Below are positions 13,765 through 56,979 of a DNA stretch of 64,000 nucleotides, piece by piece. Position 1 is the first letter of the stretch, and each line of letters starts with the position of its first letter. Source of the stretch: Laspinema palackyanum D2c (GTDB lineage: Bacteria > Cyanobacteriota > Cyanobacteriia > Cyanobacteriales > Laspinemataceae); contig NZ_JAMXFD010000001.1 in assembly GCF_025370875.1 (NCBI RefSeq), positions 360,937 through 424,936 on the forward strand, written 5' to 3'. The notes under the pieces were generated by a model. That model was given only the letters and a program-made list of their open reading frames with translations, searched no databases and was not told the origin of the DNA. A program made the translations under genes and the position numbers.

Positions 13765-15063
13765 ATGGGCGCAATTCAAGCATTACGAGGAACCCGAGAC
13801 ATCCTGCCAGCAGAGGTAGGTTATTGGCAAAAAGTAGAAGCCGTTGTCCGAGAAATCCTCGGCAAAGCCAGCTATCGAGAAATTCGGACGCCAATCTTTG
13901 AACTGACATCCCTATTTGAACGGGGAATTGGGGAAGCGACGGATGTCGTGGGTAAGGAAATGTACAGTTTCCAGAGTCGGGGAAAAAAACCCTACTCCAT
14001 GACCCTGCGTCCCGAAGGCACTGCCGGAGTGGTTCGTGCCTATATTGAGCAGAAACTGCACGCCTCCGGGGGGGTGCAGCGGTTGTGGTACACCGGACCG
14101 ATGTTCCGCTATGAACGACCCCAGGCGGGACGGCAGCGCCAATTTCATCAAATCGGGGTGGAAGTTCTCGGCAGTGCGGACCCTCGTGCCGATGTGGAGG
14201 CGATCGCGATCGCCACGGATATCCTGCAAACCTTGGGACTGAAAAACCTGCACCTGGACCTCAATTCCGTTGGGAATAGCGAAGACAGACAACGCTATCG
14301 AGAGGCTTTAATTGCCTATCTCACCCCTTATCAAGCCGAATTAGACCCAGATTCCCAGGACCGACTCACCCGTAATCCCCTGCGAATTTTAGATAGTAAA
14401 GACAAACGGACTGGAGAAATTGTCCAAGATGCGCCGAAGCTGGGAGACTATCTCTGCGACGAATCAAAACGGCACTTTGAGCGCGTCCAGAACCTGTTAA
14501 CCCAATTAGGAATTCCCTATCAATTGAATCATCGCTTGGTAAGGGGATTAGATTATTATAGTCACACGGCTTTTGAAATCATTTCCGATGATTTAGGGGC
14601 ACAAGCAACCGTCTGTGGCGGGGGACGATATGATAATTTGGTCAGCCAATTGGGGGGACCGGAAACTCCGGCTGTGGGTTGGGCGATCGGCTTAGAACGG
14701 TTAATTATTCTACTGCAAGAACTGGATACCCTTCCCCAAAGTCCCTTAGATTTTTATGTGGTTTCCCGGGGGGAACAGGCGGAAGAGAATGCCTTAGTCT
14801 TAGCCCAAAAACTGCGTCATGCCGGATTTAGCGCCGAAGTGGATTTAAGCGGCAGTGCCTTTGGCAAACAGTTCAAACGAGGCGATCGGTCTGGTGCCGC
14901 TGCCTGCTTAATTTTAGGGGATGAAGAAGCCCAGAATCAAACTGTCCAAATCAAATGGTTAGCAACCGGAGAACAGAAAGCAATATCTCAATCCGACCTC
15001 TTAGCCAACCCCGACGAACTCCGCCAACAATTACAAACCACCCATCCCCAACAATTGCCATAA
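13765..15063 (+). CDS. hisS: Histidine-tRNA ligase
   Basis: 432 residues, usual bacterial length. Class II synthetase motifs are clear: RGTRDILP at the N-terminus, motif 1 region [17 protein letters not shown], motif 2 [21 protein letters not shown], the histidine-specific [14 protein letters not shown] and GGGRYDNL, and motif 3 [11 protein letters not shown]. The anticodon-binding domain fills the last 100 residues. The C-terminal codons (from about 14996) are duplicated 2.8 kb downstream at 17821, see separate entry. Confidence 0.97.
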
Positions 15064-15109
15064 GTTCGTAGTAACGACTTCAGTCGTTCTCTTCTATCTG
15101 TTAAAACTA

Positions 15110-15165
15110 ACAGATTACACAGATTACACAGAGATTTTATCTGTGTTAATCTGTGTAATCTGTGG
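15110..15165. repeat. ACAGATTACACAG palindromic repeat, copy 1
   Basis: ACAGATTACACAGATT faces AATCTGTGTAATCTGTGG around an AGATTTTATCT centre. Further copies lie at 17910-17968 and 56869-56926. As RNA it would form a long hairpin after hisS. Confidence 0.7.
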
Positions 15166-15293
15166 TTTATTAAGTGAATGGCATTCTGAATATGAAGGGA
15201 ATTCATTATGAAATCCTAAGATATCCAAAAATCAAGGATTGATTAATCCAAGATTATCTTATTTATAAAACCTGCTTCTCAGATTGGGAATAC

Positions 15294-15767
15294 CTAAATC
15301 TTAGGGTCAATTTCTGAGGCTTTATCGGTATTTTCCGAAATTGGGATTCGTAAATTTAAAACAATGACTAATTGATTACTTTGAATATTTATATTAGTGA
15401 TATTTACCATGCTTTTATCCGGCAGTAAGTTATCGACAGCGAAGGATTCTCCTGAGTTAGTTTTATAGCCTGCTTCTTCCAACCACTCTGTAATATTCCT
15501 CCAATTTTCGACTTTACCATTAGTTTTACTAACTAAACCTTTCACATACCGATACAAAGTAGCACAAAGGTCTGTTTCCACACCCTTGGCATTCTTTCCT
15601 AACCGTTGTGCTATTTCACCCGGACTACAACCACAGAGCAATCCTCTTAGATGTAGCTTTTCGACTGGAGTCAGTCGCTTCCCCTTCGCTGATGCCAAAT
15701 CAGTGTACAGCGCATCTAAGTCCCAGTGCTTTCCTGCCTCAATAAACTGTTCGTCAGTAGGTAACAT
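15294..15767 (-). CDS. HTH protein of the ATPase-associated type, stand-alone
   Basis: 157 residues. Residues 30-105 read LTPVEKLHLRGLLCGCSPGE, IAQRLGK, an LYRYVK strand and WRNITEWLEEAGYK. I recognise this as the helical HTH module often found at the N-terminus of cyanobacterial STAND ATPases or effector proteins; here it stands alone. A tail with NITNINIQSNQLVIVLNLRI follows. ATG 15767 has GGAG 7 nt upstream. Repeated ATTCCTGATG boxes (15783, 15811) precede it, and a truncated second copy of the gene with the same boxes lies just upstream. Confidence 0.65.
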   Translation of the reverse strand: MLPTDEQFIEAGKHWDLDALYTDLASAKGKRLTPVEKLHLRGLLCGCSPGEIAQRLGKNAKGVETDLCATLYRYVKGLVSKTNGKVENWRNITEWLEEAGYKTNSGESFAVDNLLPDKSMVNITNINIQSNQLVIVLNLRIPISENTDKASEIDPKI

Positions 15768-15781
15768 TTGGTGGCTCCTCT

Positions 15782-15832
15782 GAATTCCTGATGGAATCTT
15801 AGCATAATTCCTGATGTAACTCAGGAAAATGT
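15782..15832. promoter_or_regulatory. Repeated ATTCCTGATG boxes upstream of the HTH gene
   Basis: Two ATTCCTGATG boxes spaced about 28 bp apart lie immediately upstream of the 15767 start. The same pair precedes the truncated copy (16021-16070). Conservation in both copies suggests promoter or operator elements, possibly self-regulated. This is inference from sequence only. Confidence 0.4.
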
Positions 15833-15868
15833 AGCCTTCTTCGCCACCGGGCCCTTAAATATTGCTGC

Positions 15869-16006
15869 TTAACAGGAAACATCTCCGCACCGTTGTACTA
15901 TTTCTGGGGTAGGCCCCTTTCCCCTCGCTGATGCCAAATCGGTGTACAGCGCATCTAAGTCCCAGTGCGTTCCTGCATCCGGAAACTGTTCGTCAGCCGG
16001 TAACAT
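15869..16006 (-). pseudogene. Truncated duplicate of the HTH gene 5' end
   Basis: A 45-codon minus-strand frame (ATG 16006, TAA at 15869) starts MLPADEQFPDAGTHWDLDA and runs LYTDLASARGKG, nearly the same as the start of the adjacent 157-residue protein (MLPTDEQFIEAGKHWDLDA). After the shared 30 residues about 50 bp are missing relative to the intact gene, then similarity to the later PGEIAQRLG coding stretch resumes briefly and out of order. The upstream boxes are duplicated too. It is a tandem duplicate decayed by internal deletion; a short expressed peptide cannot be excluded. Confidence 0.7.
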
Positions 16007-16125
16007 TGGGTGGCCCATCTGAATTCCTGATGTAACACTAGCAAAATTCCTGATGTAAACCAGGAAAGCATTAATTAAAAACCGCTTATTCTAGAGTAGA
16101 GGAAAACCTCTAAAAGAGGGTAACA

Positions 16126-16206
16126 ATGAGAGTCAATACAGACAATAGACACCAGATTAAGACCCGGGAAAGTAATCTTGATCTGCCTATAACCAAGCCA
16201 GACTAA
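16126..16206 (+). CDS. Possible 26-residue peptide
   Basis: ATG 16126 follows AGAGGG at SD-like spacing and opens 26 codons, MRVNTDNRHQIKT onward, ending at TAA 16204. The peptide is hydrophilic and unrecognised. It lies between the duplicated HTH segment and the SHOCT gene. The rest of 16007-16386 shows no further gene. Confidence 0.2.
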   Translation: MRVNTDNRHQIKTRESNLDLPITKPD

Positions 16207-16386
16207 CTTCTTGAAATTTCATTCGGAAGTAAAGCCAATTACCCGACCTCAACAAGGTGAGTTGAAGGCTATACCTACTTCAAGATTTATCAATTTTCCC
16301 TGACTTTCTTTAGATTTTGTGTGCTTATGTCAATTCGTATTGACAAAAAATTAAACCCCGTGGTGAATCAATGAGGATCTTAAGTT

Positions 16387-17250
16387 ATGACTAAGAAGAC
16401 GTATCGAGATAAAAACTGCGATCTAGATGTCTTAAATAAACAGATCGAATCCTGGTTCTCAGACCAAGGATATGAAGTTCAAGGGAATAAAACTGCAGGG
16501 TCTTGGTATCTACAGGCTCAGAAAACAGAAGGCTGGAGAAAAGCAGTCGGAGCATCTAGAGCTTTTACAATTTTGATTGAGGGGCAGCCCAACGACTTCT
16601 CTGTTGAACTCGGAACCGGAGAATGGGCAAGCAACTTAGTGGCGGGTGGAGTAGCTGCGGTACTCACTGGAGGTGTAAGTATTATTGGGAGCGGTTTGGC
16701 AACTGGATGGGCTAAAAAGATAGAAGGGGATATTTGGAAGTTTATAGACGAACAGATTATTTTTAAAGCCAAAGTGAAATCCGAGCGAGAACTTACTCTA
16801 TTAAAAGAGCAAGAATCTATGCAAGACAAGCTCAAGCAGCTACAGGATGCTTTCGACCAGGGTTTTATTGATGAAGTAGCTTATCAAGCCAAAAAACAGG
16901 AAATTGAACATAAAGCTCAGGATAATCTCAAAAATACTGAGTTAAATGAGAAACTGATAAAGCTTAAAAATGCTTTGGATTCGGGAATTTTAAGTTCCGA
17001 GGAATATGAAAATAAAAAAGCGGAATTAATTTCTCAATCTTCTCATGCAGAATTAGACAATAAGCTGTCTCAAATTCGAGCGGCTTTAGCCTCTGGAATT
17101 TTAAATCAAGAGGAGTTCGATATCAAAGCATCGCAAATTCAAAAAGAGATTGCTTTTGCTGAAAAACTTAAGCAATTAGAGAATGCTAAAAATGCTGGAG
17201 TTATCACAGTAGAAGAATTTGAGAAAAAGAAAGCCGCGTTACTTTCTTAA
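16387..17250 (+). CDS. Protein with four tandem SHOCT-like repeats
   Basis: 287 residues. Residues 1-80 form a mixed alpha/beta region. Residues 82-108 are a glycine/alanine-rich hydrophobic stretch (NLVAGGVAAVLTGG), a possible membrane hairpin. From 147 to the end, four SHOCT-like helical hairpins repeat at about 147, 189, 226 and 260: KLKQLQDAFDQGFID, KLIKLKNALDSGILS, KLSQIRAALASGILN and KLKQLENAKNAGVIT, each followed by EEF/EEY and K-rich residues. SHOCT domains usually occur once at a C-terminus and are thought to mediate oligomerisation; four in a row is unusual. Function unknown. Confidence 0.75.
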   Translation: MTKKTYRDKNCDLDVLNKQIESWFSDQGYEVQGNKTAGSWYLQAQKTEGWRKAVGASRAFTILIEGQPNDFSVELGTGEWASNLVAGGVAAVLTGGVSIIGSGLATGWAKKIEGDIWKFIDEQIIFKAKVKSERELTLLKEQESMQDKLKQLQDAFDQGFIDEVAYQAKKQEIEHKAQDNLKNTELNEKLIKLKNALDSGILSSEEYENKKAELISQSSHAELDNKLSQIRAALASGILNQEEFDIKASQIQKEIAFAEKLKQLENAKNAGVITVEEFEKKKAALLS

Positions 17251-17365
17251 AAAGTGCAGATTCCATCTCGGAAATTAAGATAAGGGGGTAAAGCTATGTC
17301 ATGCAATCTCTCCAGCTTTACCCCGCATCATCAATAAAATGAGCCAAAATGAATAGATTAAGGCA

Positions 17366-17668
17366 ATGCTATTATTTCATCACTTAGAACTACTTCCCGT
17401 TATCATAGGACAACTTTCAACCTGTACCAGTCCTGACCCCACACAAATGGCTGCTATAGTCGCTTTAATAGGAGGAGTTTTCCTTTTTGGTGGTGCTGGT
17501 ATTATAGCTATGTCGGCTGTTGCCACTATAATGGTACAACAAATCCTTGCGGGGGCTTCACTGATGGCGATCGCTGCTGCGATCGCCACAGATATGCAGA
17601 CCACAGGGATGTCTTTAACTATTCTTTCCGGAATAGTCACAGAAATTAAAATGATATTGGGCTGCTAA
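17366..17668 (+). CDS. Small hydrophobic membrane or bacteriocin-like protein
   Basis: 100 residues. After a 28-residue leader-like segment comes a long glycine/alanine-rich hydrophobic stretch with two or three potential membrane helices (MAAIVALIGGVFLFGGAG, then ILAGASLMAIAAAIATD), and a C-terminal cysteine. An internal ATG at 17446 would give a 73-residue hydrophobic core. The composition recalls small membrane proteins and circular-bacteriocin cores, but no processing genes are adjacent. It starts 115 bp after the SHOCT gene. Whether it is translated is uncertain. Confidence 0.45.
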   Translation: MLLFHHLELLPVIIGQLSTCTSPDPTQMAAIVALIGGVFLFGGAGIIAMSAVATIMVQQILAGASLMAIAAAIATDMQTTGMSLTILSGIVTEIKMILGC

Positions 17669-17820
17669 GTTATGTGATAATTTTAAGCAAAAATTTCAAC
17701 CAGACGGACAGCAAAAATGCTACATCCTCACGCAATTTATGTCGAGAGTTGTAACAACTTAGGCTTTTAAAAAATAGGACATATTGTCGGGATTTGGTAA
17801 ATTAGGTAGCCTTGTCTAGG

Positions 17821-17907
17821 ACCTCGTAGCCAACCCTGGCGAACTGCGCCAACAATTACCACCCACCACTCCCCAACAATTACTTGATGTTCAACCGAGG
17901 TAAAAAA
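17821..17907 (+). pseudogene. Second, diverged copy of the hisS 3' end
   Basis: 17821-17881 matches hisS 14996-15056 at about 53 of 61 positions. The frame is preserved: it encodes ANPGELRQQLP, TTPQQLLDVQPR and then a stop, against [19 protein letters not shown] in HisS. Similarity ends sharply at the ACCTC on the left. An ACAGATTACACAG palindrome follows both copies. The 2.8-kb accessory segment therefore sits between direct repeats of the hisS 3' end. Confidence 0.75.
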
Positions 17908-17909
17908 AC

Positions 17910-17968
17910 CACAGATTACACCGATTTTCCCAGAGATTTTATCTGTGTTAATCCGTGTAATCTGTGGT
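17910..17968. repeat. ACAGATTACACAG palindromic repeat, copy 2
   Basis: CCACAGATTACACCGATT faces AATCCGTGTAATCTGTGG with the same AGATTTTATCT centre as copy 1. It lies just downstream of the nitric oxide reductase stop (minus strand) and may serve as its terminator. Confidence 0.65.
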
Positions 17969-17982
17969 TCTTCCTCTAAAAA

Positions 17983-20289
17983 TTATTTCTCAATCGGTTG
18001 AAATTCTTTATGGGGATAGGTTTTAACTGGGAACTGGAAGATGGCAAAAATGGCCTTCATGGTAAAGATAAACATGGATACGGTTCCCAAGGCGAACACA
18101 ATATCCCCGGGTATCCTTAGCCAGACGGTCCATCGCATCCAGGGGGAACCGATGACTTCGGCACTTCGGGCGTACCAGGTTCCGTATTCTACGGATTGGG
18201 CGAGTTGATAGAATCCGTTGGGTATTAAGCCAAAGATTAGCATCATGACTAATCCGATATTAATGGCCCAAAATGCGAATTTAATCCAGCGATCGTCCCA
18301 AGCGTCATCCGGGACGAACTCGCGTAAGGCAAACAGCATCAGGGCGATCGCCAAGCAGCCATAGACCCCAAATAAGGCGGCGTGAGCATGAATCGGGGTG
18401 GTATTGATTCCTTGGGAATAATACAGGACAATCGGTGGATTAATCAAGAATCCAAACACCCCTGCACCGATTAGGTTCCAGATACAAGTGGCGATGAAAA
18501 ATCGCAAGGGCCAGCGATAAAATCCTTCGGCTTCTTTGGACAATTTTAAGGTTTTTAAAATTTCAAAGCCTATCAGGGTTAGGGGTACGACTTCTAAGGC
18601 GGAAAAGACGGACCCGATCGCCGCAATAAAAGAGGGAGTTCCAGAAAAGTAAAGGTGATGCAAGGTTCCAATCACACCACTGCCTAAATAAAGCAGGGTG
18701 GTCAAATAGGTGGCACGCAGGGCCGATGACCGCCGTAAAAAGCCTAATTCACTACATAAATAGGCAATCACCACCGTGGCAAACACCTCGAAAAATCCTT
18801 CAACCCAAAGATGAATTACCCACCATCGCCAATATTCGGCAATACTCAAGGGCGTGTGATTAGTGTACATCAATCCCACGGAATAAAACAGGGGAATGGT
18901 GATGGCGCTATACAGGAAAAAGTGACTCAATCCAGTCGGGCTTTTTTCCTTTTGTAAAGCGGGTTTAAATCCGCGATACAGTAACCACAGCCAGAATATC
19001 ATCGCGACAATCAGCAGGATTTGCCAGACTCGCCCGAGTTCAATATATTCATAGCCTTGATGTCCCCACAAGAAGCTATTTTTGACACTGAATAGCCCTT
19101 GCACTGCTGACCAAGACCCGATGAGGGAACCGACAACGACGACGGTTAATGCCCCCAATAAGATGCTATTGCCGAGGGCTTGTCCTTTCGGTTCATAGCC
19201 ACTAAATCGCGGTGCAAAATAGAGTCCAGCGGCTAACCAACAGGTGGCAATCCAGAAAATTGCCAGTTGTAAATGCCAGGTTCGGGTGGCGGCATAAGGG
19301 AGATAGAGGTTGAGAGGAATGCCATAAAATCCTTCCCCTTCTACGGCATAATGGGCAGTAAACATTCCCATCATGATTTGTACGAGAAACAGTGCCATTG
19401 CTACGCCAAAAAATAGCGAGGTAACTTTTTGGCTGGGGGTGGGAATTCGCACGGCGGGACGGGCGGGTACGGGCAATACTTCGTCGTCATCTTCTTTTAA
19501 ATAGATGAATAGAAAAATTCCCATTCCGGCAATTAAAATGATGACGGAAACGATGGACCATATCAGAAATTGGGCCGGGGGTTGGTTGCCAATTAAATCA
19601 TCATGCGGCCAATTTGCGGTATAGGAAAAGGGTGCATTCGGACGATTGGCGGATGCTGCCCAAGAGGTCCAGGCAAAGAACGCGGTGACGTCGTGAATTT
19701 GACTATCATCTTTAAACCAACCGGAGGGGATGGAGTGAATTGCTGACCCTTTGGCTAGGAGTTCATGATAGTCTTTAAAAACCTCTTTAAGTCCTTGACT
19801 TTGAGCGTCAGTTAAGAGGAGTTCTTGGGTTTCGGGACTATACCGATTGGTTTTAAATTGTTCACTGACTCGCGCTTGCAAACTGGCGCGTTCGGGGGCG
19901 GGTAATGCTTCTAAATCCTTTTGAGAAAAGCTAGGATTGTTGTTGTATAATATGCCAGCGGTGGCTAATCCCCAGCGATGTAAGACATCAGCGGTCCAGT
20001 CCGGGGCGAGGTAGCTACCATGTCCCCAGATGCTGCCGATATCTTGTCCTCCGCGAGAGAGGTAGATTTCCTGTCCGGATTGGATGTTAGCTTGGGTGAC
20101 GAGGATTTCTTGATTGGGCGATCGCACGATGTCGGGAACGGGTGGGGCATTTTTGGAAATGACCGCCCCCGCCCACAGTAATACACTAAAGGCAATGATA
20201 CAAATCAGGGCTAACCAGGCGGGTAAGGTGAGTTGTCGCCTGACCGGACTGATTGCACCTTTGGCATCTAATAGGGTTGAATCTGCCAT
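17983..20289 (-). CDS. norB: Quinol-dependent nitric oxide reductase
   Basis: 768 residues, the length of qNOR/NorZ, which reduces 2 NO to N2O with electrons from quinol in the membrane. An N-terminal helix (about 20-45) is followed by the soluble cytochrome-c-like extension typical of qNOR but without a CXXCH haem site. The 12-helix NorB core starts near 225. Visible features are HLWVEGFFEVF (haem and FeB ligands), then HHLYFSGTP and HAHAALFGVYG. Cyanobacteria use this enzyme for NO detoxification rather than denitrification. No nor regulator is adjacent. Upstream are hairpins and a 31-bp tandem repeat. Confidence 0.93.
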   Translation of the reverse strand: MADSTLLDAKGAISPVRRQLTLPAWLALICIIAFSVLLWAGAVISKNAPPVPDIVRSPNQEILVTQANIQSGQEIYLSRGGQDIGSIWGHGSYLAPDWTADVLHRWGLATAGILYNNNPSFSQKDLEALPAPERASLQARVSEQFKTNRYSPETQELLLTDAQSQGLKEVFKDYHELLAKGSAIHSIPSGWFKDDSQIHDVTAFFAWTSWAASANRPNAPFSYTANWPHDDLIGNQPPAQFLIWSIVSVIILIAGMGIFLFIYLKEDDDEVLPVPARPAVRIPTPSQKVTSLFFGVAMALFLVQIMMGMFTAHYAVEGEGFYGIPLNLYLPYAATRTWHLQLAIFWIATCWLAAGLYFAPRFSGYEPKGQALGNSILLGALTVVVVGSLIGSWSAVQGLFSVKNSFLWGHQGYEYIELGRVWQILLIVAMIFWLWLLYRGFKPALQKEKSPTGLSHFFLYSAITIPLFYSVGLMYTNHTPLSIAEYWRWWVIHLWVEGFFEVFATVVIAYLCSELGFLRRSSALRATYLTTLLYLGSGVIGTLHHLYFSGTPSFIAAIGSVFSALEVVPLTLIGFEILKTLKLSKEAEGFYRWPLRFFIATCIWNLIGAGVFGFLINPPIVLYYSQGINTTPIHAHAALFGVYGCLAIALMLFALREFVPDDAWDDRWIKFAFWAINIGLVMMLIFGLIPNGFYQLAQSVEYGTWYARSAEVIGSPWMRWTVWLRIPGDIVFALGTVSMFIFTMKAIFAIFQFPVKTYPHKEFQPIEK

Positions 20290-56615: not shown

Positions 56616-56979
56616 TTGAGTGTTCTCCCTTGTTCGGTTTAAATACAGCGTTTTGAGCGCCTGCGATAAGCTGTTGTTGATTATCTCAAAATTCCAGGGG
56701 TTCTGAGACGTGACTTTTTCAGGTATAAATTCCTAGGGAGCGTCGAAAGACCCTAGGCGACTGCGATCCAGATTAAAACTAAAACAATATTTTTGTTGCT
56801 TTTGTAAAAAATATTAATATTTTGATAACTTCCGTAATGGAGATTTTGAGGAGGGAGGAGAAGAAGAACCACAGATTACACAGATTTTCACAGAATTGAA
56901 TCCGTGTAAATCTGTGTAATCTGTGGTTCATATTCCAGGCTGTGAAAATTGGTGTAATCTGTATTAGCGCAATATTTTA
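56616..56979. other. Upstream region of chlB with a repeat
   Basis: AT-rich chlB promoter region, then the third copy of the ACAGATTACACAG repeat. No gene. Confidence 0.45.
56869..56926. repeat. ACAGATTACACAG palindromic repeat, copy 3
   Basis: CCACAGATTACACAGATTTT faces AATCTGTGTAATCTGTGG with a different centre (CACAGAATTGAATCCG). It follows the RHH antitoxin-like gene on the minus strand. Confidence 0.65.

Follow-up and report, generated by a model that had tools for sequence, protein, structure and literature searches.

Integrative elements that insert at the 3' ends of genes leave the host gene with an intact, replaced end, and the displaced end forms the far boundary of the element. 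Insertion with long target duplication is said to have been reported by Nobusato et al. 2000 (Gene 259:99). Three further papers describe such insertions for restriction-modification genes (PMC3874152, PMC3031569, PMC4978471). For homology-facilitated illegitimate recombination (HFIR) and single-crossover integration, another account states that one homologous end suffices for adding foreign DNA and that HFIR proper involves a deletion of similar size, usually with 3-10 bp of micro-homology (PMC3240628). A literature search found no paper on ‘long target duplication’ in cyanobacteria.

In Laspinema palackyanum D2c, a 2,650-bp insert lies between hisS and norB, and the end of hisS is duplicated on both flanks. 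The hisS gene for histidyl-tRNA synthetase (13765..15063, + strand; Pfam tRNA-synt_His and anticodon-binding domain) is intact, with a 3' end that has possibly been replaced, and its product shows 96-97% amino acid identity to those of six congeners. The right neighbour, a norB-like nitric oxide reductase gene (17983..20289, - strand; Pfam COX1 and NorB cytochrome c-like domain), is convergent with hisS and has 93-95% nucleotide identity in the six congeners. The insert itself (15170..17819, no strand assigned) has a GC content of 39.7%, compared to 47.7% for the window (the whole 64,000-nucleotide stretch of DNA analysed). Its genes are one for an HTH-like protein, accompanied by a partial decayed copy, one for a protein with four SHOCT repeats, and one for a small hydrophobic protein.

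The 157-aa HTH-like protein (15294..15767, - strand) has a weak match to Sigma70_r4_2 (E 0.081, below cut-off) and belongs to a family that is widespread in the order, with a match in 92 of 194 genomes, its own included; the decayed copy (15869..16067, - strand) corresponds to the 5' part of the gene plus upstream DNA, with 85% identity over 164 bp. The 287-aa protein with four SHOCT repeats (16387..17250, + strand; Pfam SHOCT, E 2.2e-22, four stretches) has an 86% relative in one other genome (G085), located away from hisS within the stretch read, and no match in viral contigs, plasmids or phages. The 100-aa hydrophobic protein (17366..17668, + strand) reached the cut-off for no family in Pfam and another profile search, and two more searches gave it no family of any score; distant relatives were found in 9 further genomes of the 194, and no match in plasmids. 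None of the three cargo proteins matched a restriction-modification or defence family above chance. Their genes are probably accessory genes of an ordinary kind, one resembling an HTH regulator, one for a SHOCT protein and one for a membrane peptide. No recombinase was detected among the listed open reading frames of the window, so that the absence of an integrase observed in an earlier, sequence-only reading of this DNA holds for these frames, and no integrase or transposase family scored above cut-off for the cargo proteins. A PHROG integrase match of the cargo was at chance level (E 0.78). Additionally, no inverted pair of at least 12 nt joins the ends of the insert, no tRNA was found in the window, and no match to an RNA family reached its gathering score.

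The sequence-only reading had placed an insertion at the hisS 3' end and had suggested looking for empty sites in close relatives, and this proposal is borne out: all six testable congeners carry hisS, one palindrome and norB directly after it (a seventh, G001, was left out of the count because its contig breaks off within hisS). None of these six sites retains a remnant of the insert, and the window site lacks no part of the stretch from hisS to norB seen in the congeners. When congener genomes were compared by DNA, with scoring limited to 20 first-look candidates per genome out of as many as 41, the sole insert matches elsewhere among the candidates scored were HTH-family paralogues in four of the seven congeners, and the SHOCT and hydrophobic part went unmatched in all seven. 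At the protein level, the SHOCT and hydrophobic proteins had no match in all five congeners listed.

Each flank of the insert carries a copy of the target. Copy 1 (14995..15169, + strand, 175 bp) comprises the hisS tail, a spacer and a palindrome, and is followed by norB in congeners and by the insert here; copy 2 (17820..17969, + strand, 150 bp), delimited by repeat alignment and folding, comprises a second hisS tail, a spacer and the palindrome ter2. The two hisS tails (14995-15056 and 17820-17881) match at 54 of 62 positions in an ungapped alignment, far beyond chance, as the best match to the intervening 2.9 kb, shuffled 60 times, was 31/62. Repeat finding gave 82% over 73 nt for the tail copies and 93% over 44 nt for the palindrome copies. 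The 61-bp repeat with about eight mismatches that had been noted earlier is thus real but starts one base upstream, at 14995, and the palindrome noted after both tails is present as described. The frame ending in LLDVQPR in copy 2, in contrast, is preceded by an in-frame stop, so that copy 2 does not constitute a separate gene; it also shows no visible coding constraint. Before the repeat, a single base (G), which might represent micro-homology at the joint, is shared with five of six congeners.

The chief difference between the copies is a spacer stretch of approximately 25 bp that occurs in copy 1 only and includes a small dispersed repeat, GTAGTAACGACTTCAGTCGTTCT (15068..15090, no strand assigned). 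This repeat is present in the spacers of four of six congeners (G004-G007), as in copy 1, and missing from the other two; its motif also has several further occurrences elsewhere in G005. The copy 2 spacer lacks it and has GATGTTCAA in common with G003 and eight letters of this sequence in common with G002. The first palindrome, ter1 (15103..15172, no strand assigned), has folding energies of -36.8 and -33.1 kcal/mol for its two strands, and a fold was likewise computed for ter2 (17903-17969); both form strong hairpins whichever strand is folded (z -8.5 to -10.3), and ter1 probably serves as a bidirectional terminator between the convergent hisS and HTH genes. The palindrome is dispersed, with 18 half-site matches at no more than one mismatch in the same genome. 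Another such palindrome lies at 56871-56924 of the window.

The explanation that we favour, with a probability of roughly 0.6, is that a 2.65-kb accessory segment from another lineage was added between hisS and norB with a target duplication of 150-175 bp. Its observed part consists of the duplication, the empty sites, the low GC content, and the lack of an open reading frame for a recombinase and of inverted repeats at the ends. The incoming DNA would have come from a related lineage and carried its own version of the hisS end together with the cargo, and host recombination in one arm, either one-sided or as a single crossover of a circle, would have joined it to the chromosome. The incoming hisS end would thereby have been placed beside the resident end rather than replacing it. 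Since an equivalent end arrived with the new DNA, hisS would have remained whole, and doubling of the palindrome would have given hisS, the insert and norB one terminator each.

Import from another lineage is suggested by the differing spacer types and by the unusual divergence of the hisS end. Over the last 150 alignment columns of hisS (to 15056), mean identity to congeners is 87.4%, compared to 92.5% among the congeners themselves, while the preceding 150 columns show 96.3% to congeners and 94.9% among them. This jump in divergence is limited to the hisS end and supports, short of proof, the replacement of the hisS end that had been read from the sequence. On the other side, no mosaic or imported tract was found beyond it in the hisS body or in norB, which speaks against our explanation. 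Either copy could be the native one, since copy 2 (47-53 matches over 62 nt) exceeds copy 1 (51-55 matches) in similarity to none of the congeners, another point against.

Alternatively, the cell's own 150-175 bp may have been doubled in place at widely staggered nicks, in a repair-type insertion, and the copies may have diverged later, which we consider unlikely. The freedom of copy 2 from visible coding constraint favours this, and the small repeat may be missing from copy 2 through deletion or decay of an unconstrained copy; the difference in spacer type between the copies speaks against it. Partial gene-end duplications around other cargo also occur at unrelated genes, three of them with one-copy sites in relatives, and these divide on the question. 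At a kinase gene (L098) with a duplicated end, the in-gene copy is 89.2% and the second copy 93.4% identical to the one-copy site in L099. At a prolyl oligopeptidase gene in G005, which has one match in each of the five other Laspinema genomes searched, the second copy carries the other allele at 3/3 diagnostic sites that were chosen post hoc, and overall the copies are hardly separated (61-68/75 matches to five genomes for the second, 62-68/75 for the in-gene copy). As the copies in these two cases resemble different alleles, the latter weakly, we count them as parallels for allele import and against duplication in place. Conversely, a methyltransferase/ligase gene in G005 has two 189-bp copies that are 97% alike, share letters private to G005 and are each 89-90% identical to one-copy alleles, a pattern that suits a cell doubling its own target and that argues against import. 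Behind a Fic/Doc gene there is a variable slot in four Laspinema genomes, in which 2.4 to 8.1 kb separate two tail copies and the cargo differs. A preference for 3' over 5' ends is not supported, as scans of 920 and 192 open reading frames list many 5'-end rows too, and many rows of both kinds resemble paralogues or multi-copy repeats by eye. One candidate parallel (G000 C1:286186-288342) was set aside, as the DNA there is rich in repeats.

The sequence-only reading had suggested a decayed or non-autonomous site-specific element. A relic or satellite of this kind, with the hisS 3' end as attachment site and a recombinase lost or acting in trans, is improbable, and less likely than the host recombination that we infer: such elements classically leave a gene whose 3' end has been replaced at the insertion site, but unrelated genes show the same anatomy with other cargo, to which general recombination is the better fit, and no integrase was found. 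The 23-bp longest exact match between the copies would suit an attachment site, yet it sits inside the dispersed palindrome. Among 149 hisS loci testable for end duplication, two in other genera have hisS-end duplications, around Uma2 (G008) and HicA-HicB (Microseira), but cargo and duplication length differ in each of the three hisS cases. The sequence-only reading had also proposed searching for the same genes behind hisS elsewhere; across 172 fetched hisS loci (10 of them repeats) neither the SHOCT nor the hydrophobic protein had a relative, and a lone HTH relative (41%) occurs in G008. A donor carrying this cargo behind hisS was thus not found, which counts against the import that we favour. 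At these loci norB lies beside hisS in Laspinema only, which confines the empty-site comparison to this genus. We do not claim hisS as a hotspot. Enrichment (2/149 hisS loci versus 5/1045 other genes, p 0.21; versus 1/1045, p 0.043, when the clear case L098 alone is counted) is uncertain because p depends on the control rows counted. Of 11 control rows, six were dropped (three in L078, a tandem repeat; L083, L186 and L233, with gaps <300 bp) and five kept (L096, L098, L137, L181, L204); two of these, L181 and L098, extend to the edge of the query, and the former resembles a paralogue.

An ancestral insertion lost from six congeners by recombination between the direct copies, which could be clean and would accommodate both spacer types among the empty sites, is very improbable, as it takes several losses instead of one gain, the congeners all lie at nearly the same distance from the window species (93.6-95.1% over the hisS side), and no insert remnant is left at their sites.

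Addition of a segment from another lineage, as favoured here, looks like an ordinary but little-described gene gain without a dedicated enzyme. Searches for horizontally gained genes usually proceed via integrases, transposases and tRNA sites, and insertions like that at hisS would escape them. Duplication of a gene end leaves a simple scar that can be searched for and that records the place and, roughly, the manner of arrival, and its two copies can tell whether a segment stems from another lineage. A speculative and rather doubtful extension is that a general enzyme-free route supplies filamentous cyanobacteria with toxin-antitoxin, defence and surface genes. If so, another lineage's gene end and cargo would be added beside the resident end, creating a bracketed cassette slot that host recombination could empty, refill and exchange, with the hisS, kinase, methyltransferase and prolyl oligopeptidase cases and the Fic/Doc slot as stages. 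Such a general pattern would help to explain how cyanobacterial defence and toxin-antitoxin genes spread without mobile elements.

Compared to known systems, the locus resembles 3'-end integrative elements in its intact, possibly replaced hisS end and the second end at the far boundary, and differs from them in having no integrase or excision functions and a duplication that runs past the stop codon through the palindrome. As in HFIR or in single-crossover integration, one homologous end could have added foreign DNA; unlike the recipient deletion given there for HFIR, the locus shows a duplication, with nothing of the congener stretch missing. Like insertion with long target duplication, it has a one-copy site in 6/6 testable relatives, flanking direct copies on the order of 100 bp (175 and 150 bp), and neither recombinase nor terminal inverted repeats. 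It departs from the restriction-modification cargo of those insertions, which we take as typical of published cases and not as defining, in carrying HTH, SHOCT and hydrophobic genes, and its copies resemble different alleles in their spacer types, with decay of copy 2 as a possible cause. Taken together, the hisS insertion fits a case of insertion with long target duplication, with different cargo.

The sequence-only reading had claimed that the end of hisS recurs downstream, and this recurrence proved real: in the 7.03-Mb genome that contains the window, the hisS tail at 14995-15056 matches 17820-17881 at 54 of 62 positions, versus at most 31 in 60 shuffles of the intervening DNA. The repeat continues past the tail, with the spacer and palindrome also duplicated (copy 1, 14995-15169; copy 2, 17820-17969, beside the convergent nitric oxide reductase-like gene norB). 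On both strands, both palindromes fold far more strongly than shuffled sequence, consistent with their being putative bidirectional terminators. The palindrome is not unique, as an own-genome search returned several; a further copy lies at 56871-56924, and several more half-sites are dispersed in the genome.

Seven congener genomes (G001-G007) were identified, and G001, whose contig ends inside hisS, was left out of the site test. In all six testable congeners the hisS tail is followed by a single palindrome and then norB, the empty site that the insertion reading had called for. That reading therefore survives its own test, and the locus carries an insertion with a long target duplication at hisS.

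The insert (15170-17819; 2,650 bp; 39.7% GC versus 47.7% for the window) encodes three proteins: one of 157 aa, HTH-like with a weak Sigma70_r4_2 match, one of 287 aa that has four SHOCT repeats, and a hydrophobic one of 100 aa. It also holds a decayed 5' copy of the HTH gene. This partial duplication, in direct orientation, comprises the 5' end and upstream DNA (15665-15828 versus 15904-16067, 85% over 164 bp) and adds a second gene-end scar within the insert. Elsewhere in the window, tandem direct repeats span 1-860 at a period of ~126 bp, running through an ORF at 3-662. When the insert was used as a DNA query against 15 genomes, the seven congeners included, congener matches among the 20 or fewer best candidates per genome fell in the HTH part alone and were paralogues, at 70-76% in four congeners. 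Protein searches found no match to the SHOCT and hydrophobic proteins in the five congeners listed (G002-G005 and G007).

The SHOCT repeat region also exceeds the Pfam cut-offs for GvpG, DUF1707 and DMAP_binding, and the protein has one PHROG match, to a family of unknown function (E 8.3e-11); none of these matches fixes a function. Among 194 genomes of the order, the HTH protein has a match in 92, the SHOCT protein in 31 and the hydrophobic protein in 10, each count including the window's own genome. The closest SHOCT relatives (86% in G085, 72% over residues 121-287 in G106 and 56% in G096) lack hisS, HTH and hydrophobic relatives within the 16-20 kb read at each. The sequence-only reading had proposed looking for the same genes behind hisS in other genomes. 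The 172 hisS loci retrieved, a set with 10 repeats, contain no SHOCT or hydrophobic relative and one HTH relative, at 41%, in G008.

Duplication of the hisS end itself does recur. With the 10 repeats and the window itself set aside, our survey covered 162 non-redundant loci, and two of the 149 hisS genes with at least 1.5 kb downstream show a direct 3'-end duplication. In G008, a segment reaching 108 bp upstream and 180 bp downstream of the hisS end has a second copy of 307 bp ~1 kb further downstream, bracketing a Uma2 gene broken by an in-frame stop (locus L037, 3420-4034), while in Microseira wollei a 149-bp duplication brackets a HicA-HicB pair. A hotspot at hisS was considered and is not shown (p = 0.21 or 0.043, by rows counted), because the 1045 other genes in these loci also gave one clear gene-end duplication and four weaker ones. 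In the clear case, a histidine-kinase-like gene (by eye; L098), a 230-bp duplication surrounds a ParA-like ATPase and a HEPN protein; relative to a one-copy site in Planktothrix (L099), identity is 89.2% for the in-gene copy and 93.4% for the second copy.

Gene-end scans of 1.26 Mb in four genomes (920 ORFs, window included) and of 0.3 Mb of G005 (192 ORFs) gave more cases, amid many paralogue-like or repeat rows, and 5'-end rows as well. The tail of a prolyl-oligopeptidase-like gene in G005 recurs after ~650 bp and has one match in each of the five other Laspinema genomes searched (among the 40 best candidates); at all three diagnostic sites the second copy has the other allele, although overall identity barely separates the copies. 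Another partial gene-end duplication is found at G005 C1:1008715-1009585, where the tail of a small gene, BrnA-like by eye, has a second copy upstream of the two-gene pair to which it belongs. At a Fic/Doc locus (L266, L331, L332, L334, also L333), G000 (the window's own genome), G004, G005 and G007 each have a further copy of the gene's tail, 2.4-8.1 kb downstream of it. Their cargo differs; G004 has a type I restriction R protein there (Pfam), and G000 has HicA/HicB-like ORFs (by eye). This slot holds varied defence and toxin-antitoxin-like genes in the four genomes. The G002 Doc gene lacks its tail, the sole copy lying 1.1 kb downstream, and G003 and G006 carry the second copy on a separate contig; no empty site was seen among the Fic/Doc loci of G000 and G002-G007.

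The two hisS-end copies seem to have separate histories. The copy 1 spacer has a small repeat common to four of the six congeners; copy 2 lacks it, like the remaining two, and shares GATGTTCAA with G003. The flanks (hisS side and norB) are about equally distant from every congener. The final 150 columns of the hisS alignment (to 15056) are an outlier, averaging 87.4% to congeners (86.7-88.0) versus 92.5% among congeners (minimum 90.3), whereas the preceding 150 columns are not (96.3% versus 94.9%); this jump would fit a replaced hisS end in copy 1, as the sequence-only reading had suggested. Against such replacement, the 62-bp tail alone gives a smaller contrast (87.4 versus 90.2), and copy 2, at 47-53 of 62, comes no nearer to any congener than copy 1, at 51-55. 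Within the genus the hisS stop codon varies, the window and G004 extending to ...QQLP and the other five congeners ending 3-4 codons sooner (L031-L036).

We infer that the insert may have come from another lineage, joined through one-sided host recombination; the allele evidence on the two copies is suggestive. Alternatively, the resident target could have been duplicated in place. The clearest recent example of target duplication (G005 C1:3311817-3317714) speaks for this alternative: a 3.4-kb insert, which encodes an MBOAT acyltransferase and has one more ORF that matches no Pfam family, lies between convergent methyltransferase and ligase-like genes (names by eye), flanked by 189-bp copies 97% alike. 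G000 and G004, the two genomes in which the locus has a close counterpart, have a single target copy and lack the insert. Under either import or in-place duplication, a dedicated recombinase is unnecessary.

Insertion with long target duplication was reportedly described by Nobusato et al. in 2000. The anatomy at hisS is that of such an insertion, as far as excerpts of citing papers portray it (PMC4978471, PMC3031569, PMC3874152). In an excerpt on conjugation of a non-replicative plasmid, the majority of Lac-minus recombinants had a duplicated part of the target gene (PMC3240628). The hisS insertion is best filed under this already known kind, with an unusual cargo.
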